Source: Lysobacter antibioticus
GTDB taxonomy: Bacteria > Pseudomonadota > Gammaproteobacteria > Xanthomonadales > Xanthomonadaceae
Assembly (NCBI RefSeq): GCF_000731095.1
Contig: NZ_JMTZ01000028.1
Span: 1-42,317, forward strand
Direction: 5' to 3'
Length of the DNA stretch: 42,317 nucleotides
The notes beneath the pieces were generated by a model, which ran no database searches, was not told the DNA's origin, and saw only the letters and a program-made list of their open reading frames with translations. Within the stretch, counting starts at the first letter, position 1. Each line of letters opens with the position of its first letter. Shown here piece by piece: positions 5,122-26,631 of the stretch. The translations under genes and the position numbers were made by a program.

Positions 5122-5122
5122 C

Positions 5123-12389: not shown

Positions 12390-13745
12390 TCAGTAGCGGT
12401 CGTTCAAGGCGAAGATCGGCTTGCGGTTCTTCCACTTGCCTTCGGTGAAGTCCGGGAACTCCACGGTCTTGTGCTCGGCGATGGACTGCTCCGACAAGGG
12501 GGTGATCGCGCTCCAGGCCACCGCGTCGTAGATGTCGATCGGCATCGGCGCATCGGCCTTGAGCGCCTCGATGAAGGCGTGCACGACGAAGTAGTCCATG
12601 CCGCCATGGCCCGCGCCGGCCGCGGTCTCGGCGAACCGCTGCCACAGCGGATGGTCGTACTTCTCCAGCCAGGCCTCGGCCTTGTCCCACTCGTGCGGCG
12701 TGGTCTTGCCTTCGATGTGGATCGAATCGTTGATGTCCATCCACAGGCCGTCGGTGCCCTGCACGCGGAAGCCGAGCGAGTACGGACGCGGCAGCGAGGT
12801 GTCGTGCTGCAGCAGGATGGTCTCGCCGTTCTCGCAGGCGATCTGGGTAGTGACCAGGTCGCCGAGCTTGAACTTGACCTTGGCGTTCGGATGGTCCGGG
12901 CCGGCCTGCTTGACGATGTAGTCGTGCAGGCCGCGCGCCTTGCTCGAGAACGAGCTGAGGTAGGTGAAGCGATTGCCGCGATGGATGTTGGCGACCATCG
13001 CGCAGGGGCCGATGCCGTGGCTCGGGTACAGCTCGCCGTCGCGCTGGACCGAATGTTCGGTGCGCCAACGCGCCTCCGACCAGCCCTTGGCACCGAACTC
13101 GACGCCGCCGCCGGTGGCGCGCTCGGGGTTGCCGCTGTTGAGTTTCACCGCGCGCAGGTCGTGCTGGTAGCCGCCCTGCAGATGCACGATCTCGCCGAAC
13201 AGGCCCTGCCGCACCATGTTCAGCACCGCCAGCACGTCGCGGCGATAGCACACGTTCTCCAGCAGCATGTAGGGCGTGCCGGTCTTCTGCTGGGTGCGCA
13301 ACACCTGCCAATGGTCGTCGAGGGTGATGCCGGCGACCACTTCGCAGGCGACCGCGATGCGCGCCTGCATCGCCGCGATCGCCATCGGCGCATGGAACTC
13401 CCAGGGCGTGGCGATGATCACGCCGTCGAGGCCGCCCTTGTCGAGCATCTTGCGGTAGGCGTCGTTGTCGCCGCCTTCGCCGTAGGTCGTCGGCTTGGGC
13501 CGGCCGGCCTTCTCGATCATCTTCAGCGCGCGGCCGAGCATGATCGGCTCGACGTCGCACAGCGCGACGACCTCGACGTCGTCGCGACGCACCAGTTCCT
13601 TGAGCAGCACCTGGCCGCGCATGCCGGTGCCGATCAGGCCCAGACGCAACTTCGAGCGTTTGCGGGCGAAGGCCGGCGTGAACGCGGTGCTGGCCAATAC
13701 GGTGCCCGCGGTCGCGGAAGTAGCGAGGAAGTCGCGTCGGTTCAT
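12390..13745 (-). CDS. Tat-exported GH109-type glycosidase (Gfo/Idh/MocA fold)
   Basis: A 451-residue protein with a twin-arginine signal (NRRDFLATSATAG) followed by a Rossmann dinucleotide motif LGLIGTGMRG and a Gfo/Idh/MocA body. The segments GGYQHDLR, SHGIGPCA and IHRGNRF resemble GH109 alpha-N-acetylgalactosaminidases, which use a tightly bound NAD for a redox-assisted hydrolysis and are typically Tat-exported with folded cofactor. Predicted role: periplasmic release of GalNAc from alpha-linked glycans. It follows ridA on the same strand across a repeat-rich gap and ends at a strong terminator, so it is the last gene of the leftward arm of the amino-sugar cluster. Other Gfo/Idh/MocA redox functions cannot be excluded. 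Confidence 0.82.
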   Translation of the reverse strand: MNRRDFLATSATAGTVLASTAFTPAFARKRSKLRLGLIGTGMRGQVLLKELVRRDDVEVVALCDVEPIMLGRALKMIEKAGRPKPTTYGEGGDNDAYRKMLDKGGLDGVIIATPWEFHAPMAIAAMQARIAVACEVVAGITLDDHWQVLRTQQKTGTPYMLLENVCYRRDVLAVLNMVRQGLFGEIVHLQGGYQHDLRAVKLNSGNPERATGGGVEFGAKGWSEARWRTEHSVQRDGELYPSHGIGPCAMVANIHRGNRFTYLSSFSSKARGLHDYIVKQAGPDHPNAKVKFKLGDLVTTQIACENGETILLQHDTSLPRPYSLGFRVQGTDGLWMDINDSIHIEGKTTPHEWDKAEAWLEKYDHPLWQRFAETAAGAGHGGMDYFVVHAFIEALKADAPMPIDIYDAVAWSAITPLSEQSIAEHKTVEFPDFTEGKWKNRKPIFALNDRY

Positions 13746-13771
13746 GCAGGTGCCTCGGTGGGTAGGGGGCG

Positions 13772-13985
13772 GGTGAGGAGTGAGGAGTGAGGAGTGAGGA
13801 GCGAGTAATAGCGAGGAGTGAGGAACGAGGACTGAGAAGTGAGAAGTGAGAAGTGAAAGGTGAGGCACTGGGAACGAGTCGAGACCATGCGAACTGCGGC
13901 AGCATCCGCCGCTCGCCCTCTTTACTCACTCCTCGCTATTACTCGCTCCTCGCTCCTCGCTCCTCGCCCCTCGCCCCTCGCCCCT
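13772..13985. repeat. Facing arrays of degenerate 8-mers with a 27-bp perfect inverted repeat
   Basis: From 13772 to about 13862 the plus strand carries back-to-back units of GTGAGGAG, GCGAGTAA and GTGAGAAG type. From 13921 to 13985 the complementary type (CTCCTCGC, CTCGCCCC) appears. Positions 13796-13822 and 13925-13951 are perfect inverted copies of 27 bp, 102 bp apart, and the outer units extend the pairing with scattered T/C changes. The right array touches the stop codon of ridA. A transcript from ridA into GH109 would contain a long hairpin. Confidence 0.85.
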
Positions 13986-14391
13986 ACGCGCCCCTCAGCG
14001 GGTGATACGCGATGGCTTCGATCTCGATCTTGCAATCGACCATCATTTGCGAGCGCACGCACGAACGCGCCGGCGGCTGCTCGCCGAAGTACTCGCGGTA
14101 GACGCGGTTGAAGCTCCAGAAGTCGCGGGTGTCGTCCAGCCAGACGGTGATCTTGACCACGTGGCTCAAGTCGCAGCCGGCCAGGCCAAGCACTTTCTTG
14201 ACGTTCTCCATGGTCCGGCGCGTCTGCGCCTCGATGCCGCCCTGTTCGATTTCGCCGCGCTCGTTCATGGCGACCTGGCCGGAGATGTAGACGAAGTCGC
14301 CGGCGCGCACCGCCGGCGAGAACGGCAGTTGTTGGCCGCCGGCGCCGCTGGGCTCCAGGCCGTAACGGACGATGGAATTGGAATCGCTCAT
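13984..14391 (-). CDS. RidA-family enamine/imine deaminase
   Basis: A 135-residue cytosolic RidA protein with no signal. The catalytic Arg is kept in PPARSCVRS, and the family ending KIEIEAIAYHP is present, unlike the exported paralogue at 10.5 kb. RidA hydrolyses 2-imino or enamine products of PLP-dependent dehydratases to ketoacid plus ammonia. It sits opposite a PLP-dependent deaminase operon, so it probably finishes that enzyme's reaction. It is the first gene leftward from the palindrome at 14534-14560. The stop codon is TAG, directly next to the repeat array. Confidence 0.9.
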   Translation of the reverse strand: MSDSNSIVRYGLEPSGAGGQQLPFSPAVRAGDFVYISGQVAMNERGEIEQGGIEAQTRRTMENVKKVLGLAGCDLSHVVKITVWLDDTRDFWSFNRVYREYFGEQPPARSCVRSQMMVDCKIEIEAIAYHPLRGA

Positions 14392-14533
14392 GGATGGACT
14401 CTCTGCATAGGGAGGAACGGGAAGAGCGAAGCTACGACGACCGGCGTGCTCCGCCGCGCCACTCGCAGATCGCGGGCAGCATGGCGGCGGCGCTCGGATT
14501 CGGATGGCACATTCAAGGCCTTCCCGTTGCCGA

Positions 14534-14560
14534 CGTGAAAGTATCTTACAAACTTTCACG
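14534..14560. promoter_or_regulatory. Operator-like palindrome, candidate RpiR site
   Basis: CGTGAAAGT (14534-14542) and ACTTTCACG (14552-14560) are perfect 9-bp inverted repeats around a 9-nt AT-rich spacer. It lies about 145 bp upstream of ridA and about 470 bp upstream of the SDR gene, so one dimeric regulator could control both arms. The RpiR protein encoded at 17193 is the obvious candidate; binding is inferred. Confidence 0.65.
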
Positions 14561-14885
14561 ATGCATTTTGCACTGCACCATGGCGGTTTATCAGGGCCTC
14601 TGCTACATTTCCATTGCCCATCAAGCCATCTGTGTTTGAAATTTACAGGAATGATCGGATGACCAGGGGAACCGCGCTGTGATCCATTCGCCGCACCCCG
14701 CTCCTGGGAGTCCGGCCGTGCGCCGGAGCTACGCGACCGGCACGCGACCGGCACGCAATCGGGCCCGTGCCTGCGCCGTTTCACCGTCGAACTGCGACCG
14801 AAATCCTGCGCAACGATCACGCCTTCGCCGCGCGGCCGCCACGACGGGGACACATGGATTCGCACGATCCCGCCTCGCGCAGAGA

Positions 14886-14911
14886 GTGTGCCGACGCCTC
14901 GCTCGGCACAC
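14886..14911 (+). other. Leader hairpin ahead of the SDR operon
   Basis: GTGTGCCGA, an 8-nt loop, then TCGGCACAC: a perfect 9-bp stem about 120 nt before the SDR start. No U-tract follows. Possible RNA stabiliser or attenuator. Confidence 0.35.
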
Positions 14912-15028
14912 CCAAAACCTCCGCTATCGGCGATATTCCGGTCTACCGTCATCACCCGCTGGTTCCCGATCGCCTCGTTGCGCTCGGTCCGACGCTGCGG
15001 GCGCCCCCATTGAAGGAATGATCCGTCC

Positions 15029-15805
15029 ATGAGCCAAAGCCGTTTGACCTTGATCACCGGAGCCGCGGGCGGCATCGGCCGAGGATTGCTCACCCGTTTC
15101 GTCGTCGGCGGCGATCGTGTGCTCGCCCACGATCGCGATGCCGATGCGCTGGCCGCGCTGGCCGCGAGTTTCGCGCCCGGGCAGGTGCTGACCGCGGCGT
15201 CCGAGTTGTCCGATCTCGACGCCTTGCGCGCCGCACTCGCGCCGGTCACCCAGGCGCACGGCCCGATCGGCGCGGTCATCGCCAACGCCGGCAGCGCCGA
15301 AGGACTGAGCCTGGCCGGCACCGCGCCGGGCGCGTGGCAGCGCGACGTCGATGTGAACTTGAACGCCGGCTACTGCACGGTGGAAGCGGCGCTCGACGGG
15401 CTCAAACGTACCCGCGGCAACATCGTCTTCATCGGCTCGGTCAACGGCCTCGCCGCACTCGGCCATCCGGCCTACAGCGCGGCCAAGGCCGGCTTGATCA
15501 GCTACGCAAAATCGATCGCGATCGAATACGGCCGGCTCGGCCTGCGCGCCAACGTGATCTGCCCGGGCACGGTCAAGACCCAGGCCTGGCAGGCGCGCGC
15601 CGACAAGCATCCGCAAGTGTTCGAGGACTTGAAGAAGTGGTATCCGCTCGGCGACTTCGCCACGCCCGAGGACATCGCCGAAGCCGCCTGGTTCCTCGCC
15701 TCGCCGCAGGCGCGCATGATCAGCGGCGCGGTGCTGCCGGTCGACGGCGGCCTGATGGCCGGCAACCGGGTGATGGCTTCGGAACTCACCCTGGAGCCGT
15801 ACTGA
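15029..15805 (+). CDS. SDR-family dehydrogenase, candidate amino-sugar 1-dehydrogenase
   Basis: A 258-residue classical short-chain dehydrogenase: cofactor motif TGAAGGIG (10-17), NAG (86-88), catalytic Ser137, Tyr149 and Lys153 (YSAAK). Asp35 after the second strand suggests NAD. It is the first gene of the rightward operon and overlaps the deaminase start (TGATG). In context its best role is oxidation of N-acetylgalactosamine or a related sugar at C1 to the lactone or aldonate, the entry step of an oxidative route. Family membership is certain and substrate is inferred; an alternative is a later sugar-acid hydroxyl oxidation. Confidence 0.85.
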   Translation: MSQSRLTLITGAAGGIGRGLLTRFVVGGDRVLAHDRDADALAALAASFAPGQVLTAASELSDLDALRAALAPVTQAHGPIGAVIANAGSAEGLSLAGTAPGAWQRDVDVNLNAGYCTVEAALDGLKRTRGNIVFIGSVNGLAALGHPAYSAAKAGLISYAKSIAIEYGRLGLRANVICPGTVKTQAWQARADKHPQVFEDLKKWYPLGDFATPEDIAEAAWFLASPQARMISGAVLPVDGGLMAGNRVMASELTLEPY

Positions 15806-15826
15806 TGACTGGGGCCGTACCTATGA
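15791..15826 (+). repeat. Tandem 18-bp duplication of a start region
   Basis: Positions 15791-15808 and 15809-15826 match at 15 of 18 bases. Each copy holds a purine-rich GGAG or GGGG box and an ATGA. Both ATGs are in the deaminase frame (residues 1 and 7), so the duplication may give two alternative starts; the first also contains the SDR stop. Confidence 0.7.
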
Positions 15827-17112
15827 ACGCGGCACTGCGCGAGCTCGGACAGAACCTGTTGCTGCCCGGCGTCAAGGGATTGCCGTTGCAACAGGCCACG
15901 CGCCAGGACGCGATCGGCGGGCTCGGCCTGCATGTTCTCGACGGCAGCCTGTCGTATCCGGTCGCGGTGCTGCGCGAGTCCACCCTCGCCCACAACATCG
16001 CCTGGATGCGCGATTTCGTCGAACGCGCCGGCGCCCTGCTCGCGCCGCACGGCAAGACCACGATGAGCCCGCAGTTGTTCCAGGCCCAACTCGATGCCGG
16101 CGCCTGGGCGATCACCCTGGCGACGGTCCCGCAGTTGCGCATCGCTCATCGGTTCGGCGTGCGCCGGGTGCTGCTGGCCAATCAGCCGGTCGCGATCGCC
16201 GACATCGAAAGCCTGGCCGCGCTGCTGCGCGACGACCCCGGTTTCGAGGCCTGGGTCCTGGTCGATTCCTCGGCCGGCGCCCGACGCCTCGCCGAGGTGA
16301 TGCAGCGGCTCGCACCGCAACGTCGATTGCCGGTATTGGTCGAGCTCGGCGCCGAAGGCGGCCGCACCGGCGTGCGCGGCCTCGACGCCGCGCTGGCGCT
16401 CGCGCGCGAAGTCGCCGCGAGCCCCGCGCTGCGCCTGGCCGGCATCGAAGGCTACGAAGGCCTGTGGGTCGGCGCCGATCGCGACAGCGACCTGGCACGC
16501 GTGCGCGGCCTGCTCGCCGAGCTGGTCGAGCTGACCCGCCGCTGCGATGGCGAGGGCCTGTTCGACGGCGAGGAGATTTTGATCAGCGCCGGCGGCTCGG
16601 CGTATTTCGATTTCGTCGCCGACGCCTTCGCCACGGTCGGCGCGACCACGCGCCCCCTGCGACGCGTGCTGCGCTCGGGGTGTTACCTCACCTCCGACCA
16701 CGGCTTCTATCACGGCCTGCAACAGGAAATGCGCACCCGCCACGACGCCAGCTTCCGCCACGGCCTGCAACCGGCGCTGGAAGTGTGGGCGGCGGTGCAG
16801 TCGCGCCCGGAGCCGGGTCTGGCCCTGCTCACCCTCGGCAAGCGCGATGCGTCCTACGACATCGACCTGCCCAAGCCCCTGTGCTGGCACCGCCCCGGCG
16901 AGCCGGCGCCGGCGCCCATGCGCGATGCGCGCATCGCCAAGATGAACGACCAGCATGCCTATCTCGAACTGCCGCACGATCATCCGCTGCAGGTCGGCGA
17001 TCTCGTCGCCACCGGCATTTCGCACCCTTGCACCACGTTCGACAAATGGCAGGTGCTGCTGACGGTCGACGACGGTTATCGCGTCACCGGCGCCATCAAT
17101 ACTTTCTTCTGA
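15805..17112 (+). CDS. PLP-dependent D-amino-acid-type deaminase (DSD1/D-threonine aldolase-like)
   Basis: A 435-residue protein with an alanine-racemase-like PLP barrel; the Schiff-base lysine is Lys84 in PHGKTTMSP. The C-terminal D-serine-dehydratase-like domain ends with the metal-site pair His407 and Cys409 (ISHPCTTFDKW). The family covers D-threonine aldolases and metal-assisted D-serine dehydratases. Next to a D-aminoacylase-type enzyme it is usually called amino acid deaminase. With dgoK and dgoA following, a better-fitting substrate is an aminosugar acid such as D-galactosaminate, giving 2-keto-3-deoxygalactonate plus ammonia with RidA help. That substrate is inference. Start 15805 is preferred; 15823 is possible. 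Confidence 0.85.
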   Translation: MTGAVPMNAALRELGQNLLLPGVKGLPLQQATRQDAIGGLGLHVLDGSLSYPVAVLRESTLAHNIAWMRDFVERAGALLAPHGKTTMSPQLFQAQLDAGAWAITLATVPQLRIAHRFGVRRVLLANQPVAIADIESLAALLRDDPGFEAWVLVDSSAGARRLAEVMQRLAPQRRLPVLVELGAEGGRTGVRGLDAALALAREVAASPALRLAGIEGYEGLWVGADRDSDLARVRGLLAELVELTRRCDGEGLFDGEEILISAGGSAYFDFVADAFATVGATTRPLRRVLRSGCYLTSDHGFYHGLQQEMRTRHDASFRHGLQPALEVWAAVQSRPEPGLALLTLGKRDASYDIDLPKPLCWHRPGEPAPAPMRDARIAKMNDQHAYLELPHDHPLQVGDLVATGISHPCTTFDKWQVLLTVDDGYRVTGAINTFF

Positions 17113-17192
17113 ACGCGCCACCGACGCGATCGATACCCCCTAATCGCCGCATGATCGGCGCGATCGACAATCTTCCGAGGAACGACCCCATC

Positions 17193-18050
17193 GTGTCCGA
17201 CAACCTCATCCCCAAGATCCGCGGAGCGCTCGACACCTTGCGTCCGGCCGAACGCAAGGTCGCCGAGACCGTGCTGGCCGATCTGGACTTCGCGATCCAC
17301 GCCAGCATCGGCGCGCTGGCGATACGCGCCAATGTTTCCGAGCCCAGCGTGACCCGCTTCTGCCGCGCGATCGGCTGCGAAGGCCTGCGCCAGTTCAAGG
17401 TCCAGCTCGCCCACAGCCTGGCCGTCGGCGTGCCCTACCAGACCGTCACCATCGACAAGGACGACGACGCCGCGACCCTGGTGCACAAGGTCTGCGACAG
17501 CATCTCCGCGGCCCTGCACGATGTACGCGAGCGCACCGACCCGGCCGCGCTCGACGCCGCCGCCGGCTTGATCGCCGGCGCTCGCCGCGTGTGCTGCATC
17601 GGCGTCGGCTCGGGCTCGGGCGTGGTCGCGCAGGACGCCTTCCTGCGCTTCCTGCGCCTGGACATCGCCGCCACCGCCCACAGCGACGGCCATCTGCAGC
17701 GGCTCGCCTCGGGCATGCTCGACGCCAACGACGTGCTGTTCGCGATCTCTCTGTCGGGCCGCAGCCCCGAGGTCAACGACAGCGTGCGCATCGCCAAGCA
17801 GCGCGGCGCGCGCATCATCGCCCTGACCCAGGCCGGCGCGCCGCTGGGTTGGGACGCCGACGTGCCGCTGCTGTTGCCGCCGTCGAGCGCGGCGACGCCG
17901 TACTCGCCCGGCGTGTCGCGGCTGATGCAGTTGGCCGTGATCGACATGCTGGCGATCGCAGTCGCGCTGCGCCAGGAACCGGGCGTGCTGGAGAAGGCGC
18001 GCCGGGCCAAGGCCGAAGTCGAACGCACCCAGGTTCCCGGCCGCTCATGA
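17193..18050 (+). CDS. MurR/RpiR-family transcriptional regulator
   Basis: A 285-residue regulator with an N-terminal RpiR helix-turn-helix domain (about 1-77, with LRPAERKVAETVL and VSEPSVTRFCRAIGCEGLRQFK) and a C-terminal SIS domain (about 120-260, with CIGVGSGSGVVAQDA and SLSGRSPEV) that binds sugar phosphates or sugar acids. The start is taken as GTG at 17193, about nine bases after GAGGAA; an ATG at 17151 would add a 14-residue tail unlike the family. The stop overlaps the deacylase start (ATGA). It probably represses the cluster through the palindrome at 14534-14560. Confidence 0.87.
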   Translation: MSDNLIPKIRGALDTLRPAERKVAETVLADLDFAIHASIGALAIRANVSEPSVTRFCRAIGCEGLRQFKVQLAHSLAVGVPYQTVTIDKDDDAATLVHKVCDSISAALHDVRERTDPAALDAAAGLIAGARRVCCIGVGSGSGVVAQDAFLRFLRLDIAATAHSDGHLQRLASGMLDANDVLFAISLSGRSPEVNDSVRIAKQRGARIIALTQAGAPLGWDADVPLLLPPSSAATPYSPGVSRLMQLAVIDMLAIAVALRQEPGVLEKARRAKAEVERTQVPGRS

Positions 18051-19525
18051 GCGCGAGATTCGCACCGGCGGCAGCCACCTTCGATCTGGTCATCGCCGAC
18101 GCCTGGGTGCTCGACGGCAGCGGCGGCCCCGGCTACCGCGCCGATGTCGCCGTCGACGGCGAGCGCATCGCCGCGATCGGCGCGCCCCACAGCCTGCACG
18201 GACGCAAACGCGAGGACGCATGCGGGCTCGCACTGGCACCGGGCTTCATCGACGTCCACACCCACGACGACCGCGCGGTGCTCGACGACCCCGGCGTGTT
18301 CAACAAGCTCAGCCAGGGCGTGACCACGGTGATCGCCGGCAATTGCGGGATCAGCCTGGCGCCATGGCGCGCCGACCGCGAACCGCCGGCGCCGCTGTCG
18401 TTGATCGGAGGCCAGGCCGATTTCCGTTTCGAACGCTTCCGCGACTACCTCGATGCGGTCGATGCGGCGCGCCCGGCGGTCAACGTCGCGGCGATGGTCG
18501 GTCATTCGACCCTGCGCATCGCCGAGGTCGCCGACCTCGGCCGCGCCGCCGACGATGCCGAGATCGAACGCATGCGCGCGCGCTTGCGCGAGGCGATGCA
18601 GGCCGGCGCGATCGGTTTCTCCAGCGGCCTGTTCTACCAGCCGAGCCGGGCCGCGCCGAACAGCGAAGTGATCGAACTCGTCCGCGAGAGCGGCGCCTAC
18701 GGCGGCGTCTACGCCTCGCACCTGCGCGACGAATACGACGGTGTGCTCGAAGCGATCGACGAAGCCGTCGACGCCGGCGAAGCCGCGCACACCCCGGTCG
18801 TGCTGTCGCATCACAAATGCGCCGGCCCCGCGAACTGGGGCCGCACCGTTGAGACCCTGGCGCGCATCGACGAACGCCGCCGCCGCCATTGGGTCGGCCT
18901 CGACGCCTACCCCTACACGGCCGGCTCGACCGTGCTCGATCCGGACTACGTCGACGGGGCGATCCGGATCCTGGTGAGCTGGTCGACGCCGCACCCCGAA
19001 CAGGCCGGTCGCGACCTGAGCGACATCGCCGCCGATTGGCGGGTCGACCAGAAAGAAGCCGCGCGCCGCCTGCACCCGGCCGGTGCGGTGTATTTCCAGA
19101 TGCGCGAGGACGACGTCCGCCGCGTGCTCAGCCACGACCGCACCATGATCGGTTCCGACGGCCTGCCGCACGACGCCCACCCGCATCCGCGCCTGTGGGG
19201 CGCGTTTCCGCGCGTGCTCGGCCATTACTGCCGCGACCAGGGCTTGTTCCATCTGCCCGAAGCGGTGCGCCGCATGACCTCGCTGTCGGCCGACAGCTTC
19301 GGCCTCAAACGGCGCGGACGCATCGCCCCCGGACTCGCCGCCGATTTGGTTCTGTTCGATCCCGACACCATCGCCGACCGCGCCACCTTCGCCGAACCCA
19401 AGCAAGCGGCCGCGGGCATCCGCGCGGTCTGGGTCGGCGGCGCCTGCGCCTTGCGCGATGCCCACGCCACCGGCGAACGCCGCGGCCGCGTCCTGCGCCG
19501 CGAGGAGGAACGCCATGCTCGATGA
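18047..19525 (+). CDS. D-aminoacylase-type amidohydrolase, candidate N-acetyl-aminosugar-acid deacetylase
   Basis: A 492-residue zinc amidohydrolase. The D-aminoacylase metal and active-site residues can be matched one by one: His71, His73 (HTHDD), Cys100 (GNCGIS), His225 (SHLRDE), His255 (LSHHK) and Asp371 (GSDGLP). The known family reaction is removal of acyl groups from N-acyl-D-amino acids. An aldonic amino sugar has the same N-acyl-2-amino acid head group, so N-acetylgalactosaminate or N-acetylglucosaminate is a natural alternative substrate, which fits the dgoK-dgoA neighbours. It overlaps RpiR by four bases and dgoK by eleven. Confidence 0.87.
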   Translation: MSARFAPAAATFDLVIADAWVLDGSGGPGYRADVAVDGERIAAIGAPHSLHGRKREDACGLALAPGFIDVHTHDDRAVLDDPGVFNKLSQGVTTVIAGNCGISLAPWRADREPPAPLSLIGGQADFRFERFRDYLDAVDAARPAVNVAAMVGHSTLRIAEVADLGRAADDAEIERMRARLREAMQAGAIGFSSGLFYQPSRAAPNSEVIELVRESGAYGGVYASHLRDEYDGVLEAIDEAVDAGEAAHTPVVLSHHKCAGPANWGRTVETLARIDERRRRHWVGLDAYPYTAGSTVLDPDYVDGAIRILVSWSTPHPEQAGRDLSDIAADWRVDQKEAARRLHPAGAVYFQMREDDVRRVLSHDRTMIGSDGLPHDAHPHPRLWGAFPRVLGHYCRDQGLFHLPEAVRRMTSLSADSFGLKRRGRIAPGLAADLVLFDPDTIADRATFAEPKQAAAGIRAVWVGGACALRDAHATGERRGRVLRREEERHAR

Positions 19526-20450
19526 ATCGCTCCACCGCAACGCCCCCAACACCGGCACCGCGATCGCCCTGATCGGCGTCGACTGGGGCTCCACCCATCT
19601 GCGCGTGCACGCCTTCGACGCGCTCGGCGGCATCATCGCCACGCGCCAGAGCGCGCGCGGCATGGCCTCGCTGCATTCGCCCGAGGCCTTCGCCGCCGCG
19701 CTCGACGACCTGCTCAGCGTCGACCTCGACGACGGCGACGCGCCGATCTTGCTGGCCGGCATGGTCGGCGCGCGCAACGGTTGGCAGGAAGCGCCGTACG
19801 CGCCGTTGCCCGCCCATGCCGATGCGCTCGCCTCGGCGTTGCAGCCGCTGACGTTCAAGCAGCGCCGCGCCGCGATCGTGCCCGGCGTCAGCGGCGCCAG
19901 CGATGGCTTCGACGACGTCATGCGCGGCGAAGAGACCCAGGCGCTCGGCGTGCCGCCCGGAACGCGACGCGTAGCCGCACCGGGCACGCACAGCAAATGG
20001 CTGACCCTGGACGGCGGCGGCGTGGTCGGGTTTTCGACCTATCCGACCGGCGAGATTTATTCCCTGTTGCTGCATCACAGCCTGCTCGGGCGCGGCCTGC
20101 CGGCCGAGGCCTGGTCGGAACGCGGCTTCATCAAGGGCCTGGACACCGCGCGCGAACGTCCCGACTGGTTGCACCAGTTGTTCGGCGTGCGCGCACGCAA
20201 CGTCCGCGACGCCGCGCCGGTCGAGGAATTGCCGGCGTTCCTGTCCGGCCTGTTGATCGGCTACGAGTGCCTGGCCGCCAACAACGAACCCGGCGACGGC
20301 GGCGAAGTCGCGGTGATCGGCGGCGCCAAGCTCGCCGCGACCTACGCCCTGGCGCTGCGCCGCTACGGCATCCCCCACTACATCATCGAAGGCGACACCG
20401 CGTTTTGCCGCGGCTTGTGGCGCATCGCAAAGGCAGCCCGATTCGTATGA
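19515..20450 (+). CDS. dgoK: 2-dehydro-3-deoxygalactonokinase
   Basis: A 311-residue DgoK-family kinase, with VDWGSTHLRVHAFD (ASKHA phosphate loop), PGTHSKWL, and the family's SGLLIGYE region. It phosphorylates 2-keto-3-deoxygalactonate at O6. Strong GAGGAGGAA ribosome-binding site, 11-nt overlap with the deacylase and ATGA overlap with dgoA. It is the only KDGal kinase in the window, so it probably serves both this operon and the galactonate operon at 24.6 kb. Confidence 0.92.
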   Translation: MLDESLHRNAPNTGTAIALIGVDWGSTHLRVHAFDALGGIIATRQSARGMASLHSPEAFAAALDDLLSVDLDDGDAPILLAGMVGARNGWQEAPYAPLPAHADALASALQPLTFKQRRAAIVPGVSGASDGFDDVMRGEETQALGVPPGTRRVAAPGTHSKWLTLDGGGVVGFSTYPTGEIYSLLLHHSLLGRGLPAEAWSERGFIKGLDTARERPDWLHQLFGVRARNVRDAAPVEELPAFLSGLLIGYECLAANNEPGDGGEVAVIGGAKLAATYALALRRYGIPHYIIEGDTAFCRGLWRIAKAARFV

Positions 20451-21124
20451 CCCTCGCCACGTCTCTGCCTCTGCCGAGCACGCTGCCGGCCTGGCTCGTC
20501 CAGTCGCCGTTCGTCGCGATCCTGCGCGGCATCACCCCCGACGAGGCCCTGCCGGTCGGCGAAGCGCTGTGGGATGCGGGCTGGCGCATCATCGAAGTGC
20601 CGCTGAATTCGCCGGATGCGTTCGAGAGCATCGCCCGCCTGCAACGGCGTTTCGGCGATGCGATCCTGCTCGGCGCCGGCACCGTGCGCCGCGCCGACGA
20701 AGTCGACACCCTGGTCCGCATCGGCGCGCGCCTGATGGTCTGCCCGCACACCGATCCGGCGCTGATCGGCTACGCCAAGGCCTGCGGCTTGTTCGCCCTG
20801 CCGGGCGCGGCGACCCCGAGCGAATGCCTGGCCGCCCTCGACGCCGGCGCCGACGGGCTCAAGCTGTTTCCGGCCGATGCACTCGGCCCGGCGATGCTGA
20901 GCGCCCTGCGCGCGGTGCTGCCCGCCGGCACCGCGGTGCTGCCGGTCGGCGGCATCCACACCGACCTGCTCGCGATCTGGCGCAAGGCCGGAGCGATCGG
21001 CTTCGGCATCGGCGGCACCTTGTACAAGCCCGGCACGACCGCGCCGCAGGTCGCCTCGACCGCGCAGGCCTTCAACGAAGCGTGGCTGGAATCGGTACCG
21101 ACACCGCGCGGCTTGCGTTCGTAA
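20447..21124 (+). CDS. dgoA: 2-dehydro-3-deoxy-6-phosphogalactonate aldolase (copy 1)
   Basis: A 225-residue KDPG/KDPGal aldolase: Schiff-base Lys139 in DGLKLFPA, catalytic Glu50 in IIEVPLNSP, phosphate-binding GGI and GIGG near the C-terminus. The VPLNSP segment is typical of the galactonate rather than gluconate type. It splits KDPGal into pyruvate and glyceraldehyde 3-phosphate. It is the last gene of the rightward operon, coupled to dgoK. A clearly diverged second copy lies at 23843-24487. Confidence 0.92.
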   Translation: MTLATSLPLPSTLPAWLVQSPFVAILRGITPDEALPVGEALWDAGWRIIEVPLNSPDAFESIARLQRRFGDAILLGAGTVRRADEVDTLVRIGARLMVCPHTDPALIGYAKACGLFALPGAATPSECLAALDAGADGLKLFPADALGPAMLSALRAVLPAGTAVLPVGGIHTDLLAIWRKAGAIGFGIGGTLYKPGTTAPQVASTAQAFNEAWLESVPTPRGLRS

Positions 21125-21262: not shown

Positions 21263-21982
21263 TCAGTCGGGCTGCGACCCGCCGGCCGTCGACTCGATCA
21301 ACGCCGTCACCTCGTCGAGCAATCCCCGCATGGCCGACTTGGCTCGCTCGCCATCGCCCGATGCGATCGCTTCGTATACGCGCGCGTGGTCCTCCACGCT
21401 GGCCAGATCGACGCCCTTGGAACGATTGGTGACCCCGATCGAAATCCGCAACGCGGTATCGACCAGGTCGCGCAGGCGCGAATAGAAGCGGTTGCCGCTG
21501 GCTTCCAGCACCGCGACATGGAAGGCGATGTCCGATTCGAGCGCATCCCCTTCGCCCAGCTCGGCGGCGCGCATGCGCTCGATCGCGGCCTCGATCCGGG
21601 CGATGGCTTCGGCATCGCCGCGTTGCGCCGCCAGCATCGCCGCCATCGGCTCGACCGCAAGCCGCACCTGAGTGAACTCGAGCAACAGGCCGATGGAGAA
21701 CTTGCGCTCCAGCAACCAGCGCAAGACGTCCGGATCGAGCAGGTTCCAGTTCGTCTCGGGCTCGATGATGGTGCCGCGCTTCGGCCGCGCACTGAGCAAA
21801 CCCTTGGCCGTGAGCATCTTGACTGCCTCGCGCACGATGCTGCGGCTGGCGCGAAGCTGCACGCACAGTTCGGCCTCGGTCGGGAATGCCTGCTCCGGAC
21901 CGTAGTGACCGGTCACGATCGCCTCGCCCAGAGATTCGACGATTCGCCTGGTCAGGCTTGCGGAACGAGGCAATCGATTCAT
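21263..21982 (-). CDS. FadR-subfamily GntR regulator (FCD domain), copy 1
   Basis: A 239-residue regulator: winged helix (about 10-75, with RRIVESLGEAIVTG and RASRSIVREAVKMLTAKGLL) and an FCD ligand domain (about 90-225, with DIAFHVAVLEASGN and DHARVYEAI, the metal-binding Asp/His positions). FCD regulators respond to small organic acids; in galactonate loci the DgoR type senses galactonate. It lies downstream of the symporter gene on the same strand, separated by 268 bp, and converges with dgoA copy 1. It probably controls the galactonate or amino-sugar genes. Confidence 0.87.
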   Translation of the reverse strand: MNRLPRSASLTRRIVESLGEAIVTGHYGPEQAFPTEAELCVQLRASRSIVREAVKMLTAKGLLSARPKRGTIIEPETNWNLLDPDVLRWLLERKFSIGLLLEFTQVRLAVEPMAAMLAAQRGDAEAIARIEAAIERMRAAELGEGDALESDIAFHVAVLEASGNRFYSRLRDLVDTALRISIGVTNRSKGVDLASVEDHARVYEAIASGDGERAKSAMRGLLDEVTALIESTAGGSQPD

Positions 21983-22250
21983 ACGGTCAGCTCCGGTAAT
22001 GGCTCTCGCGACAGGGCCTGCGTGCCATCGAAGAGGCGAGGCCCGGCCAACCCGATAAGGCCGCGGCCTGTCATGCCTGCAAACTCGGAGCCTTCCGCCA
22101 TGCCGGAGCATTATCGCGGAGGCCTGCGGCAATAGCCACGCAAGCCGGCAAGCGGGCATCGCTGCGCGGTATCAAAACAGGGCCGGGCAAGCGCCCCAAG
22201 CGCGGCCGATCCGCTGCAATCGGCGCGGCGCCGCAGGAACCGACCGCGGC
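21983..22250. other. Gap between GntR copy 1 and the symporter
   Basis: 268 bp holding the presumptive promoter of the regulator. I see no gene or terminator with a T-tract and no copy of the 20-bp element found near 24.6 and 27.7 kb. Confidence 0.4.
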
Positions 22251-23846
22251 TCACCACCACGTGGCATAGAGCGCCACGAGTATCGCGACCACCGCCAGGG
22301 CCGCGATGTTGAAGCCCGCGCTGGTGCGGAAGCTGACGCCCTCGACCTCGATGCGGTTCACCCCGGCCCGCGACGGGACGAGCAGCGACACCGCCATCGC
22401 CAGCAGTCCGGTGACCAGAAACACCAGGCTCATGCGATCCAGGAACGGCAGCGACGGCCATACCATCTTGAACAGATAAGAGAACGCGACCGAGCCCGTC
22501 GCCGCGGCGATCGCGCCTGCCTCGTTCGCACGCTTCCAGAACAAGCCCAGCAGGAAGATCACGGTGATGCCCGGCGTGAAGAATCCGGTGAACTCCTGAA
22601 TGAACTGGAACGCTTGATCCGACTTGCCCAACAAGGGGCGGGCGGTCATCGCCGCGATGACGACCGCCACCGTCGCGACGATTCTTCCGACCCTGACCAG
22701 GCGGCGTTGGCGCACGGGGTCATCGTCCGAATCGGAGCCGCGGCGTGCGCCCGCCGCATACTTGTCAAACAGGTCCAGGGTGAAGATGGTCGCTATCGAA
22801 TTGATCTTGGAAGCCATGCTGGAAATGACGGCGGCGATCAATGCCGAGAACACCAGGCCGAGCACTCCGGGCGGCAGCAGGCGCATCATCGTCGGGTAGG
22901 CCTCGTCCGGCTTGGACAGATCCGGGGCCAGCACGACCGCGGCGATGCCCGGCAGCACGATGATGATGGGCATCAACAGCTTCAGGAACGCGGCGAATAT
23001 CACCCCTTTCTGCGCCTGATCCAGATCGCGCGCGGCCAGCGCGCGTTGAATGATGTACTGATTGAAGCCCCAGTAACTCAAGTTGGCCAGCCACATCCCG
23101 CCTATCAGCACCGACAACCCCGGCAGGTCCCGATAGAAGGGATTGTCCGGCTTCAGGATCATGTGGAAATGATCGGGAGCGCGCTCGACCAGCACCCGGA
23201 AACCGGCGCCGATGCCGGCCCCGTCGCCGATCTTGTCGAGGGTCAGCCCGGACACCAACAGGCCTCCCAACACCAGCAGCGCCACTTGCACGATGTCGGT
23301 CAACGCCACCGCTTTCAAGCCGCCGTACAACTGATACAACAGCGCGAACGCGGCAAGCAGATACAGCGCCGTGCCCTGGTCGATACCGGCGATCTGGTTC
23401 ACGGCGATCGAGCCGAGCCAGGCGATCGAGGTCAGGTTCACGAACACGTACAACGCGAGCCAGAACACCGTCATGAGGTTGCGGATGCCGGTCCCGTAGC
23501 GTTGCTCCAGGAACTGCGGCATCGTGACGATGCGGTTGTGCAGAAAGATCGGCAGTATCCACTTGCCCACGATCAGCAAGGTCGCGGCCGCCATCCATTC
23601 GTAGGATGCGATGGCGAGCCCCAGCGCATACCCGGAACCGGACATGCCGATGATTTGCTCGGCGGAGATGTTCGCGGCGATCAGAGAGGTCCCGATCGCC
23701 CACCACGGTAGCGATCGCGAGGCGAGAAAGTAGTCGTTGCTGTTTTTCTTGCGTCCGTGTTTCTCCCGCGCGACCCAATGCGCCAGGCCGAAGATCGCGA
23801 CGGCGTAGACGCCGATGATGACCAGATCGAGCGTCGACAATGTCAT
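22251..23846 (-). CDS. Sodium:solute symporter (SSS family), likely sugar transporter
   Basis: A 531-residue membrane protein with about 13-14 hydrophobic segments and SSS signatures: ANISAEQIIGMSGSGYALG near the start, GGLKAVALTDIVQ in the middle (the segment corresponding to the GG-x-AV-TD family motif), and SSMASKINSIATIFTLDLF. This resembles SGLT-like galactose/glucose symporters. It is translationally coupled to the second dgoA (ATGA overlap) and divergent from dgoD, so galactose, galactonate or a close relative is the probable substrate. It would import what the GH35 enzyme releases in the periplasm. Confidence 0.87.
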   Translation of the reverse strand: MTLSTLDLVIIGVYAVAIFGLAHWVAREKHGRKKNSNDYFLASRSLPWWAIGTSLIAANISAEQIIGMSGSGYALGLAIASYEWMAAATLLIVGKWILPIFLHNRIVTMPQFLEQRYGTGIRNLMTVFWLALYVFVNLTSIAWLGSIAVNQIAGIDQGTALYLLAAFALLYQLYGGLKAVALTDIVQVALLVLGGLLVSGLTLDKIGDGAGIGAGFRVLVERAPDHFHMILKPDNPFYRDLPGLSVLIGGMWLANLSYWGFNQYIIQRALAARDLDQAQKGVIFAAFLKLLMPIIIVLPGIAAVVLAPDLSKPDEAYPTMMRLLPPGVLGLVFSALIAAVISSMASKINSIATIFTLDLFDKYAAGARRGSDSDDDPVRQRRLVRVGRIVATVAVVIAAMTARPLLGKSDQAFQFIQEFTGFFTPGITVIFLLGLFWKRANEAGAIAAATGSVAFSYLFKMVWPSLPFLDRMSLVFLVTGLLAMAVSLLVPSRAGVNRIEVEGVSFRTSAGFNIAALAVVAILVALYATWW

Positions 23847-24487
23847 GCATCCACCGCGCTTGCGTCTTTGCGGTATGCCGCGACGACCGCCATGAAGGCA
23901 TCGGCACGGGCGGCGACCTCGGCCGCGGTCATCCCGGGCCGATACAGGCTGTTTCCGAGGCCATAACCATCGACCCCGGCACGAAGCCAATGCGCCGCGT
24001 TGTGCTCGTCCACGCCGCCGACGGCGCAGACGCTCACCCCGGCCGGGAGCACGGCTCGCAGCGCGCGCAAATGGGCGGGGCCATAGGTCGAAGCCGGGAA
24101 CAGTTTGAGCCGGGTCGCTCCCGCAGCGATCGCGTCGAAAGCCTCGCTGGCGGTGCCCACGCCCGGCATCGGCACCATGCCCAGTTCCAGGGCGCGCCGT
24201 ATGACCGCGGCGTCGGTGTTGGGCGCCACCAGCAGGCGCCCTCCGGTCTCGTGCAACTGCTCGACCTGGCGCAGGTCGAGCACGGTGCCGGCGCCGCACA
24301 GGCAATCGCGACCGAAAGCCCGCTGCAGCAGCCCGATGCTGACGAAGGGATCGGGCGAGTTGAGCGGAATCTCGATTCCGCCCACGCCGCGCTCGACGAG
24401 CGCCTCGGCGATGCGAAGCACTTCGCCCGGGGTAATTCCGCGCAGGATCGCTATGACGAACGGCGTTGCGTGACTTTGGGACGGCAT
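23843..24487 (-). CDS. dgoA: 2-dehydro-3-deoxy-6-phosphogalactonate aldolase (copy 2)
   Basis: A 214-residue KDPGal aldolase with Glu39 (GIEIPLNSP) and Schiff-base Lys128 (TRLKLFPAS). It is clearly diverged from copy 1 but keeps the galactonate-type NSP motif. It begins the leftward operon with the symporter and is divergent from dgoD across a promoter region with the 20-bp element. No kinase accompanies it. Confidence 0.92.
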   Translation of the reverse strand: MPSQSHATPFVIAILRGITPGEVLRIAEALVERGVGGIEIPLNSPDPFVSIGLLQRAFGRDCLCGAGTVLDLRQVEQLHETGGRLLVAPNTDAAVIRRALELGMVPMPGVGTASEAFDAIAAGATRLKLFPASTYGPAHLRALRAVLPAGVSVCAVGGVDEHNAAHWLRAGVDGYGLGNSLYRPGMTAAEVAARADAFMAVVAAYRKDASAVDA

Positions 24488-24599
24488 CTGATCGCTGCTC
24501 CAGCCTGCATGGTCGAGCGGGTACTGCGCCTGGGAATACTCATCCCCGGCTCATCCGGCGGCGTCATGGCGCCTCTGTCGCCTGCCGGACGATGGTTTA

Positions 24600-24619
24600 A
24601 AGTACTTATATATGATAAA
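24600..24619 (+). promoter_or_regulatory. 20-bp shared element upstream of dgoD
   Basis: AAGTACTTATATATGATAAA, identical to 27705-27724 upstream of the TonB receptor. It contains the palindrome AAGTACTT, a TTAT-N5-ATAA dyad and -10-like hexamers (TATATA, TATGAT). It lies 40 bp before the dgoD start and 113 bp from the dgoA copy 2 start. Likely a joint promoter/operator bound by one of the two GntR proteins. Confidence 0.7.
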
Positions 24620-24658
24620 AGTGCAGCCTGTCCATCGCCATCATTTCGCCGACTGCCT

Positions 24659-25804
24659 ATGAGCCTCATTGCCCGGATAGAAACCTTCCGCGTGCCGCCG
24701 CGCTGGCTGTTCGTGCGTGTCGAAACGACCGATGGCGCGGTAGGTTGGGGAGAAGCCAGTCTGGAGGGGCATGTCGAGGCCGTCGATGGCGCTTATGAAG
24801 CGCTGCGCGATCGCTTCGTCGGCGCCGACGCGGATCGGATCGAAGACATATGGCAGGTCGCCTATCGCCTGGGTTTCTACCGCGGCGGGCCGGTGCTGAT
24901 GTCGGCGCTGGCCGGCCTGGATCACGCTCTGTGGGACTTGTTGGCCAGGCGTCTGGGGCTTCCCGTGTGGCAACTGCTGGGAGGCAAGGTGCGCGACCGC
25001 ATCGCCGTCTATGCCTGGGTCGGCGGCGATCGCCCCGGCGAGGTCGAACAGGCCAGCCGAGTCCGCCAGCAACAGGGCTTCACCGCCGTCAAGATGAATG
25101 CCACCGAGGACCTGGACTGGCTGGCCCGTCCGCGCGACCTGGACCCGGTGCTCGAACGCGTTGCGGCGGTGCGGGCGCTCGGGCTGGACGTCGGCCTGGA
25201 TTTCCACGGCCGCGTGCACAGGCCGATGGTGCGCTCGCTGATCAGCGCATTGGAACCGCTGAGCCCGCTCTTCATCGAAGAACCCGTCCTGTCGGAGCAT
25301 CCCGAGGCGCTCGCGCAACTGGCGCAGTTCACCAAGTTGCCGATCGCGATAGGCGAGCGGCTGTACAGCCGATGGGACTTCAAGCCGTTCCTGCAGGCGG
25401 CGGCGGTCGATATCCTGCAACCGGACTTGAGTCATGCCGGCGGAATTTCCGAATGCCGGCGCATCGCCGCCATGGCCGAAGCCTACGATGTCGCCATCGC
25501 ACCGCACTGCCCGCTCGGCCCCCTGGCCCTCGCCGCCTGCCTGCAGTTGGCCGCCGCCACGCCCAACTTCGTGATTCAGGAAATGTCGCTGGGCATCCAC
25601 TACAACAGCGCCGAGTACGACTTGCTGACCTACCTGAGCAATCCGCAGGTGTTCGACATCCGTGCGGGCTATGTCGATGTGCCCTCCGGCCCGGGCCTGG
25701 GCATCGAGATCGACGAGGCCAGGGTGCGCGAGGCCGCGCGCATACCGCACACTTGGCGCAACCCGGTCTGGCGCGGCGCCGATGGGAGCATTCGCGAATG
25801 GTGA
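24659..25804 (+). CDS. dgoD: D-galactonate dehydratase
   Basis: A 381-residue enolase-superfamily enzyme. The residues known for DgoD can be matched: metal ligands Asp181, Glu207 (EEPV) and Glu233 (GER), catalytic His183 (DFHGRVH) and His283 (PHCPLGPLALAA), and KMNA near 145. These are offset by about two from the E. coli enzyme as I recall it. It dehydrates D-galactonate to 2-keto-3-deoxygalactonate. The start at 24659 follows the 20-bp element. It overlaps the SDR gene by 7 nt. A kinase is absent nearby; dgoK at 19515 would complete the De Ley-Doudoroff route. Confidence 0.93.
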   Translation: MSLIARIETFRVPPRWLFVRVETTDGAVGWGEASLEGHVEAVDGAYEALRDRFVGADADRIEDIWQVAYRLGFYRGGPVLMSALAGLDHALWDLLARRLGLPVWQLLGGKVRDRIAVYAWVGGDRPGEVEQASRVRQQQGFTAVKMNATEDLDWLARPRDLDPVLERVAAVRALGLDVGLDFHGRVHRPMVRSLISALEPLSPLFIEEPVLSEHPEALAQLAQFTKLPIAIGERLYSRWDFKPFLQAAAVDILQPDLSHAGGISECRRIAAMAEAYDVAIAPHCPLGPLALAACLQLAAATPNFVIQEMSLGIHYNSAEYDLLTYLSNPQVFDIRAGYVDVPSGPGLGIEIDEARVREAARIPHTWRNPVWRGADGSIREW

Positions 25805-26550
25805 GTTCCGCACGACGTTTCGAAGGCCGCACCGTGCTGATCACCGGCGGCCTCGGGGGCATCGGCCTGGCGTGCGCGAAGCGCTTCGCCGCGGAAGGCG
25901 CGAGCCTCGCCCTGATCGACTTTCGCCAGGATCGTCACAGCAAAGCGACCGAGGCCTGCCGCGCCGCCGGAGCGGCGCATGTCGTCGTGCTGTCCTGCGA
26001 CGTATCCGATGAAGGCCAGGTCGATGCCGCTTGTGGCGCCGTGCGCGAGCGCCTCGGCGGCCACGACATCGTCGTCAACACCGCCGGGCTGATGCTGTTC
26101 AAGCCGCTGGAAGACTTCAGCAGCGACGAGTGGCGGCGACTGCTCGGCGTCAACCTGCTCGGGCCGGTGCATTTCACCCGCGAATGGCTGCGTCATGCCG
26201 CGCCCGGCGGCGCGATGGTCAATATCGCCAGCGTGCACGCCTCGATGACGACACCGATGGTGGCGCCGTATGCCGCGGCCAAGGCCGCCCTGCTGTCGCT
26301 GACCCGCAGCGCCGCGATCGAGGGCGCCGCGAAGGGCCTGCGCGCGAACGCGGTGGTGCCCGGCGCGATCGACACCCCGATGTTATGGTCCAACCCGAAT
26401 CTGCAATCGGGCGCCGAAGTCATCTCCGCCGAAGACATCGGCACGCCGGACGACGTCGCCGGGGCGGTCCTGTTTTTGGCCTGCGACGAAGCGCGGTTCG
26501 TGACCGGCGCGAGCCTGGAAGTCAGCGGCGGGCGTCTGGCGAGACTGTAA
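25798..26550 (+). CDS. SDR-family dehydrogenase, candidate D-galactose 1-dehydrogenase
   Basis: A 250-residue classical SDR: TGGLGGIG (16-23), Asp41 after the second strand (NAD preference), NTAG instead of NNAG, Ser145, Tyr158 and Lys162. It overlaps dgoD by 7 nt. Being coupled to galactonate dehydratase, its likely reaction is oxidation of galactose to galactonolactone. No lactonase gene is visible in the window; the lactone may open spontaneously or elsewhere. Oxidation of a galactonate isomer is an alternative. Confidence 0.82.
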   Translation: MVSSARRFEGRTVLITGGLGGIGLACAKRFAAEGASLALIDFRQDRHSKATEACRAAGAAHVVVLSCDVSDEGQVDAACGAVRERLGGHDIVVNTAGLMLFKPLEDFSSDEWRRLLGVNLLGPVHFTREWLRHAAPGGAMVNIASVHASMTTPMVAPYAAAKAALLSLTRSAAIEGAAKGLRANAVVPGAIDTPMLWSNPNLQSGAEVISAEDIGTPDDVAGAVLFLACDEARFVTGASLEVSGGRLARL

Positions 26551-26631
26551 CGCGACGCGCTCCCTTCATCGCCGATACGAGCGCTATTTCGCGCACTCCA
26601 GCGCAGTGCCCCTATCTTGCCGGCAAAGCGC

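Follow-up and report, generated by a model that had tools for sequence, protein, structure and literature searches.

The window analysed here, a stretch of 42,317 nucleotides of Lysobacter antibioticus (RefSeq assembly GCF_000731095.1, contig NZ_JMTZ01000028.1, positions 1 to 42,317 of the forward strand), contains an eight-gene unit that probably directs an oxidation-first catabolism of N-acetylgalactosamine (GalNAc). Family identities were assigned by Pfam and NCBIfam profile scans of the window proteins, and these matches bore out the genes named in a first-pass annotation, together with their order and coordinates (Table 1). Six plus-strand genes encode a short-chain dehydrogenase/reductase (SDR), a pyridoxal phosphate (PLP) deaminase, an RpiR-family regulator, a deacetylase, DgoK and DgoA. 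Four of their five junctions are overlaps (-1, -4, -11 and -4 bases) and the fifth is a gap of only 38 bases, and we therefore read them as one operon. The genes of RidA and of a GH109 glycosidase are oriented in the opposite direction. All eight genes occur together, at 72-92% identity, in three relatives of the genus (L018, L021 and L022), and this recurrence of the gene set exceeds chance. A hydroxyproline-type cluster to the left of the operon (with a 4-hydroxyproline epimerase above cut-off) is unrelated.

Table 1. Features of the operon, of its intergenic region and of the adjoining galactonate cluster (window positions, unless a locus handle is given)
Feature	Position	Strand	Evidence or remark
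GH109 glycosidase	12390..13745	-	PF21252, 286 bits; sole PF21252 match in the genome
RidA, enamine/imine deaminase family, OngD counterpart	13984..14391	-	PF01042; TIGR00004, 108 bits (cut-off 106)
Perfect inverted repeat CGTGAAAGTATCTTACAAACTTTCACG	14534..14560	.	between RidA and operon
Putative C-terminal remnant of orphan gene	14896..15003	+	tblastn; syntenic place
SDR dehydrogenase	15029..15805	+	PF13561/PF00106
DSD1/D-threonine-aldolase-type PLP enzyme	15805..17112, alternative start 15823	+	PF14031
RpiR-family regulator	17151..18050, alternative start GTG 17193	+	PF01418 and SIS
D-aminoacylase-type amidohydrolase (deacetylase)	18047..19525	+	514 bits to D-aminoacylase 1m7j
DgoK, 2-keto-3-deoxygalactonate kinase family	19515..20450	+	PF05035, 267 bits; sole PF05035 match in the genome
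DgoA, KDPGal aldolase	20447..21124	+	PRK09140, 260 bits (cut-off 207)
GntR/FCD regulator of galactonate cluster	21263..21982	-	PF07729, PF00392
Sodium:solute symporter (SSS) of galactonate cluster	22251..23846	-	PF00474, TIGR00813
Second KDPGal-type aldolase (DgoA2)	23843..24487	-	PRK09140, 270 bits (cut-off 207); A, I, V signature
DgoD galactonate dehydratase, makes KDGal	24659..25804	+	NF010624, 567 bits (cut-off 311)
Second SDR	25798..26550	+	SDR family
GH35 beta-galactosidase family	32718..34598	+	PF01301, 392 bits
Orphan genes of other loci	L018:11310-12500, L021:11798-12991, L022:7490-8686, L033:6908-8164, L036:6796-8004, others

We infer the substrates, the reaction sequence and the operator as follows. 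The GH109 enzyme would act outside the cytoplasm, releasing GalNAc from alpha-linked glycans, the SDR would oxidise this sugar to N-acetylgalactosaminate, the deacetylase would release galactosaminate, and the PLP enzyme would deaminate the latter to 2-keto-3-deoxygalactonate (KDGal), which DgoK would phosphorylate to 2-keto-3-deoxy-6-phosphogalactonate (KDPGal), with DgoA acting as the KDPGal aldolase. The RpiR protein would repress the unit from the intergenic region between the RidA and SDR genes. The proposed sequence (GalNAc, N-acetylgalactosaminate, galactosaminate, KDGal, KDPGal) is in our view a probable one. It is not strictly non-phosphorylative, as the first-pass annotation had it, since DgoK would act late.

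The nearest solved relative of the GH109 protein, which bears a twin-arginine-like leader (read by eye), is the alpha-N-acetylgalactosaminidase 2ixa (522 bits), followed by the Akkermansia-type 6t2b (257 bits). The GH109 C-terminal domain and the close homology to 2ixa place the protein in this class and suggest a putative alpha-N-acetylgalactosaminidase. In the SDR, Y149, K153 and D35 are invariant across 13 aligned operon SDRs and S137 is nearly so; we take Y149, K153 and S137 to be the catalytic positions, and Asp35 presumably marks the NAD type. The closest PDB entry (5tt0, 304 bits) states no function, and we propose that the enzyme is an NAD-type GalNAc 1-dehydrogenase. The DSD1-type PLP enzyme (316 bits to 3gwq, annotated as D-serine deaminase) is proposed to be a D-galactosaminate ammonia-lyase, and the amidohydrolase an N-acetyl-D-galactosaminate deacetylase.

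The marine route that the first-pass annotation had named as similar proved to be that of the Pseudoalteromonas prydzensis ong cluster (Jiang et al. 2022, PMC9537276). In this system, after import of oxidised chitin, OngB removes the acetyl group of N-acetylglucosaminate and OngC deaminates the product to 2-keto-3-deoxygluconate (KDG), which KdgK phosphorylates; the RidA protein OngD is essential, with a role given as unknown, and OngR is an RpiR repressor (PMC9537276). The window unit resembles ong in having RidA, a DSD1-type deaminase, an RpiR regulator and a D-aminoacylase-type deacetylase in the order C-R-B, and a kinase and an aldolase after a 2-keto-3-deoxy acid, i.e. late phosphorylation. 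What is new relative to ong, judged from the genes, is a variant with an SDR of its own, with DgoK and a KDPGal-type aldolase in place of KdgK, and with a predicted non-OngB deacetylase of another clade (F193, T292, Y298, Q348). The unit differs further in its alpha-GalNAcase-type glycosidases and, in relatives, in an extra orphan glycosidase-fold gene; family scans of the genes at 12.4-26.5 kb revealed no GH20 (the OngA type).

In an alignment of 32 sequences, the window enzyme retains the metal ligands Cys97, His222 and His252 and the base Asp368 (PpOngB numbering) that mark D-aminoacylases and subtype V amidohydrolases, and keeps the carboxylate-binding residues. At five other positions it has Phe193, Ala256, Thr292, Tyr298 and Gln348, whereas PpOngB has Ala, Ala, Ser, Gln and Gly. 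The acetamido and carboxylate ligands of OngB are common to D-aminoacylases and Ser292 and Gln298 are carbohydrate-specific (Wang et al. 2025, PMC12017989); these two residues are found in nine ong-type loci (L023-L031, from the family and class searches), in PpOngB and in 9g5m. Orthology of the window deacetylase to OngB was rejected, because Ser292/Gln298 are replaced by Thr292/Tyr298 and the enzyme falls into a separate clade (100/100) of the unrooted tree. This clade has 12 rows (the window, L018, L021, L022, L033, L036, L037, L041, L045, L046, L049 and L050, the last on a cut contig) and nests in a 20-row group (97/100) that includes AfDam and others but none of PpOngB, 9g5m and the ong-type rows; two further SDR loci, L075 and L084, have deacetylases that lie within the 20-row group and outside the 12-row clade. 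The hydrophobic pocket of AfDam is absent, its Met254 being replaced by Ala (column 256) and its Met346 by Gln (column 348), while AfDam Leu298, which the paper pairs structurally with Gln298, aligns at column 300, an Asp in the window. The pocket is thus predicted to be more polar than that of AfDam, and the enzyme appears to be a D-aminoacylase recruited a second time, separately from OngB, as far as an unrooted tree can indicate. The deaminase is homologous to those of the nine ong-type loci, yet in the tree it stands outside their 100/100 group. A single clade of all operon deaminases was not found; those of L075 and L084 are nearer the ong rows (85/63) and that of L080 is placed elsewhere.

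Two other arrangements of these enzyme types were seen. A Variovorax locus (L107) carries DgoK (36%), an aldolase nearest DgoA2 (49%), RidA, a deaminase and RpiR (31%), together with a deacetylase whose pocket is of a different type (Leu298); no SDR was found at the locus. This is perhaps a route for imported aldosaminic acids. At L076 and L077, deaminase-deacetylase pairs stand beside genes resembling those of peptide-type ATP-binding cassette (ABC) transporters (read from sequence), which may point to a variant for D-amino acids or muropeptides.

GalNAc and N-acetylglucosamine (GlcNAc) differ at C4. KDPGal aldolases are marked by A11/I12 and V154, and aldolases of 2-keto-3-deoxy-6-phosphogluconate (KDPG) by P19/V20 and T161 (PMC4915726). 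An alignment with E. coli DgoA and Eda revealed A11, I12 and V154, all present in the window DgoA (E. coli DgoA numbering); A, I and V also occur in DgoA2 and in the operon aldolases of L022, L036 and L049, and P, V and T in the genome's own Eda (contig C117) and in E. coli Eda. Since the aldolase holds all three KDPGal positions and C4 is where the two sugars differ, the galacto reading is strengthened. The initial preference for galacto over gluco is backed by the KDPGal-type aldolase, the single DgoK and the GH109 and GH31 relatives of alpha-GalNAcases.

The deaminase was searched for in 198 genomes of the family, which gave 13 matches (six in the genus), and in 369 genomes of the class, which gave five, the window's own genome being included in both. 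Within the genus, five relatives have the deaminase. Three of them carry the full operon (L018, L021, L022); the other two (G090 and G138) have GH109 and the deaminase only, and no deacetylase was found genome-wide at E 1e-100. A scan of GTDB genomes with a deaminase alignment yielded 578 confirmed loci, of which the best 80 were taken, some of them ending at contig edges. Among these 80, the SDR was present at 10, the deacetylase at 15 and RidA at 13 (identity of at least 45%), and at the remaining 65 the deacetylase was not seen at the locus. The deacetylase accompanied nine of the 10 SDR loci vs six of the 70 others (Fisher p 2e-7). The SDR loci belong to Pseudoduganella violacea (L033), Leeia oryzae (L036), Undibacterium (L037, L041, L045, L046), Sapientia aquatica (L049) and metagenome-assembled genomes (MAGs) of Rhodanobacter (L075), Inquilinus (L080, whose contig ends early) and an alphaproteobacterium (L084).

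The known aga pathway of GalNAc (AgaK, AgaA, AgaS, AgaZ/Y) begins with phosphorylation and ends in tagatose phosphates. None of its genes (GalNAc kinase, GalNAc-6-phosphate deacetylase, AgaS, AgaZ) lies inside the oxidative operon. It has the presumed sugar in common with the oxidative unit and, across species, the GH31, GH109 and TonB receptor neighbours. In P. violacea the operon follows a GH31 gene whose product has a GH31 alpha-N-acetylgalactosaminidase as its best PDB match (413 bits; next enzyme 193). Of 12 GH31 neighbourhoods, a non-random sample, seven lie beside an aga operon (L115, L127, L128, L133-L136), four beside the oxidative operon (L021, L033, L037, L049) and one beside neither (L137). 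GH31 and GH109 (71-76%) stand together beside the aga operon in four Massilia-type genomes, and in G190 a GH31 gene (91-94%) and a TonB receptor gene (88-89%) stand beside the oxidative operon and GH109. This exchange of GH31, GH109 and receptor is the strongest argument that the two pathways serve the same sugar. Transporters in the operons of other genomes are also informative: the major facilitator superfamily (MFS) protein of the Undibacterium operon scores 508 bits to NagP (cut-off 625) and is above the glucose/galactose cut-off, as is another MFS protein in L075, and in L033 a UgpC/MalK-type ABC ATPase scores above cut-off, alongside a permease that weakly resembles MalG and a binding protein that weakly resembles GanS. 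These NagP-like and maltose/UgpC-type transporters back the earlier proposal that the neutral sugar is taken up before it is oxidised.

Several observations weigh against an oxidative GalNAc route. The same genome has, at contig C26, a complete aga cluster (AgaS family, ROK kinase, AgaZ, AgaR, AgaA, GH31 and TonB receptor), in which AgaR (330, cut-off 260), AgaZ (605, cut-off 569) and a NagA-type deacetylase score above cut-off and the ROK kinase and the AgaS-family isomerase below it; GalNAc use in this strain therefore does not need the oxidative route. Contig C117 has nag genes, with NagA above and a NagB-II-like isomerase below cut-off, and the idea that in this strain the operon stands in for a missing GalNAc kinase was refuted by the C26 and C117 genes. 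The genome also encodes one AA10 lytic polysaccharide monooxygenase (LPMO), a lactonase gene was not identified, and the P. violacea aldolase has a mixed A, I, T signature and scores as the KDPG/2-keto-4-hydroxyglutarate (KHG) type, which counts against a uniform galacto reading. OngC, a homologue of the deaminase, also accepts D-Ser and D-Thr (PMC9537276). The deaminases of L075, L080 and L084 and the deacetylases of L075 and L084 fall outside the main operon groups. Many relatives retain the deaminase only: no deacetylase (E up to 1e-100) was found in 12 of 12 deaminase-only genomes, 10 of them Oxalobacteraceae, and in the tree their deaminases nest among those of the operons. Since the deaminase persists without the deacetylase and nests in this way, it is not diagnostic by itself.

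The glycosidases bring further counter-evidence, and the AgaZ distribution speaks both ways. The GH31 gene of G190 (L021:15366-18663) is split between two reading frames, with the junction near residue 442, and may be broken or misassembled. Presence of GH31 was rejected as a genome-wide marker of the operon, as it was found in four of 10 operon genomes vs four of 12 deaminase-only genomes; the position of GH31 is informative, its presence is not. In favour of the oxidative route, AgaZ was found in none of the 10 operon carriers outside the genus vs eight of 12 deaminase-only Oxalobacteraceae (Fisher p 0.0017), these 22 genomes being hand-picked from the 80 loci, hence non-random, and three of the 10 carriers being MAGs of unknown completeness. 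The genus itself has AgaZ in nine of nine genomes (in one at 52% only), and the anticorrelation weakens to p 0.012 when the genus is included and loses significance (p 0.14) when, in addition, only homologues of at least 60% identity are counted; four of the eight Oxalobacteraceae AgaZ proteins have 62-64% identity and four 52-54%. The absence of AgaZ is compatible with the use of other tagatose-phosphate aldolases.

G190 has a divergent aga-like cluster (L125:5211-12656) with AgaR at 43%, AgaZ at 52% and AgaS at 43% and, as read from sequence, a possible BadF-type kinase; the orthologous cluster is absent from this genome. Galactosaminogalactan, a fungal Gal/GalNAc polymer, was considered as a substrate and remained unsupported, GH114 not being found in the genome, with other families unsearched.

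Three other explanations have to be weighed against the oxidation-first GalNAc route. A terrestrial ong-like unit, in which LPMO-made N-acetylglucosaminate would be deacetylated and deaminated to KDG, then phosphorylated and cleaved, the SDR being incidental or GlcNAc-oxidising, would agree with the enzyme types and C-R-B order, which match ongCRBD (PMC9537276), with the AA10 LPMO, with the Undibacterium transporter nearest a GlcNAc permease model, and with the conservation in the window deacetylase of Glu226, the C4 contact of OngB. We nevertheless consider it unlikely, because the deacetylase lacks Ser292/Gln298 and belongs to a clade (100/100) apart from the OngB rows, the aldolase is of the KDPGal type and the kinase is DgoK, not KdgK, the flanking glycosidases are alpha-GalNAcase relatives with no GH20 in the scans of 12.4-26.5 kb, and GlcNAc is already served by NagA and the NagB-II-like isomerase (C117). 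In its favour, galactosaminate and glucosaminate do not differ at C2/C3, and the deacetylase and deaminase may therefore not discriminate between them.

The operon could instead scavenge N-acyl-D-amino acids with the deacylase, PLP deaminase and RidA, dgoK and dgoA serving the galactonate cluster only. The top score of the deacetylase is indeed to the D-aminoacylase 1m7j (514 bits), with Phe193 and Thr292 in common, the deaminase is closest to an annotated D-serine deaminase, deaminase-only genomes exist, and the deaminase-deacetylase pairs of L076 and L077 lie by peptide-type ABC transporter-like genes. Such a role is improbable, however, given that dgoK and dgoA overlap the deacetylase gene and each other and recur in the operons of L018, L021, L022 and Leeia, loci in which dgoD was not seen, that Ala and Gln take the place of the AfDam pocket residues Met254 and Met346, and that genes for sugar transporters, GH31, GH35 and GH109 are found with the operon. 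Very improbable, finally, is the use of a different acetamido sugar or the import of N-acetylgalactosaminate already oxidised. An SSS transporter, OngIT, does carry the acid in ong (PMC9537276) and the window has an SSS gene (22251-23846), but the latter overlaps DgoA2 and runs away from the operon, the SDR is conserved across the 13 aligned operons, and the NagP-like or UgpC/MalK-type transporters speak for uptake of a neutral sugar and its oxidation inside the cell.

To the right of the operon lie genes for a GntR regulator, an SSS transporter, the second KDPGal aldolase, DgoD, a second SDR, another GntR regulator, a TonB receptor-like protein and a GH35 enzyme; the second SDR is likely a galactose dehydrogenase, from gene context alone. 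The De Ley-Doudoroff pathway of galactose comprises galactose dehydrogenase, DgoD, DgoK and DgoA. The GalNAc route proposed here would resemble it in C1 oxidation, KDGal, DgoK and DgoA, DgoD being supplied by the adjoining cluster, which is without a DgoK; unlike that pathway, in which DgoD removes water from galactonate, it would release ammonia from an amino-aldonate that had first been deacetylated. The 5.53-Mb genome has no PF05035 match besides this DgoK, and the DgoD cluster lies next to it, which implies that, barring an unrelated kinase, both routes should use the DgoK of the operon. The galactonate cluster (21263-27330) thus seems to depend on its neighbour, and galactose oxidised through it would join at KDGal.

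In L018, a GH35 orthologue (84%; 3351-5228) follows the operon dgoA directly on the same strand, and this placement ties the beta-galactosidase to the oxidative operon. A GH35 gene (52%) is also close to the operon in L075. Near the GH35 and TonB receptor-like genes of the window, positions 34849-35967 encode a DUF3472 protein with a ricin-type lectin domain, and in a Massilia-type aga locus (L133:14609-15895) a DUF3472 and DUF5077 protein lies between GH109 and a TonB receptor-like gene; both proteins are possibly part of GalNAc glycan capture.

In other genomes the operon usually contains, preceding the SDR, a gene for an orphan protein of approx. 397 amino acids with a glycosidase-like TIM barrel. 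Fold searches (in which the lack of a family from the lists is no evidence against that family) make it a candidate for an undescribed glycosidase family. The window strain appears to retain only a C-terminal remnant, with 42-53% identity over 36 amino acids to three same-genus orphans (tblastn, E 2e-5 to 3e-3). At the DNA level it is 70% identical to L022 across 84 bp (E 7e-6) and 72% identical to L021 across 148 bp, in an alignment that takes in the opening 32 bases of the SDR gene. The L049 orphan gives a chance-like match of E 0.001 on the minus strand elsewhere, which the weakest of the three protein matches (E 0.003) does not surpass; support for the remnant therefore comes from its position, the two other protein matches and the DNA comparison. 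In Rugamonas (L039, 8790-9995) the orphan gene stands beside a deaminase gene, without SDR or deacetylase.

The palindrome CGTGAAAGTATCTTACAAACTTTCACG has no second match in the window at up to two mismatches (its shuffle control used single bases, not dinucleotides), and the GTGAAAnTAnnnTACA-like half of it is a possible RpiR operator. An element GTGAAA...TACA, found by eye and by pattern with no cross-species shuffle comparison behind it, occupies the same intergenic place in L018, L021, L022 and Leeia (L036), all of which carry an RpiR gene, and is a plausible candidate operator. The full palindrome at up to two mismatches has no match in these four loci and scattered matches in L037, L041, L046 and L084.

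No description of an oxidative GalNAc route was found in the open PMC literature, a scope that leaves most subscription journals outside, and none appears in passages of PMC5507952 and PMC11653859. For Natrarchaeobius a route from glucosamine to D-glucosaminate has been predicted (PMC12343721); there too a sugar dehydrogenase precedes deamination of an amino-aldonate, but that route, also a prediction, belongs to the gluco series, deacetylates first, and has a phosphorylated intermediate and another lyase.

According to PMC9537276, the catabolism of GlcNAc, GalNAc, N-acetylmannosamine and N-acetylmuramic acid has phosphorylation as its initiating step. An oxidation-first GalNAc route, if confirmed, would break this rule. 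It would also suggest repeated recruitment of D-amino-acid enzymes to amino sugar breakdown, the window deacetylase being no OngB, would explain how bacteria in which no aga aldolase gene was found could use GalNAc, and would add a GalNAc dehydrogenase as well as a new candidate family of glycosidases. A more far-reaching version, which we offer tentatively as somewhat less than an even chance, is that in Lysobacter and Oxalobacteraceae the oxidative and aga routes have been swapped behind a shared GH31/GH109/TonB kit, that an ancestral cytoplasmic orphan glycosidase opened an imported GalNAc-saccharide, and that in Lysobacter the route merged with galactose oxidation at KDGal; in that case, Gal-GalNAc glycans would feed one kinase and the KDPGal aldolases.

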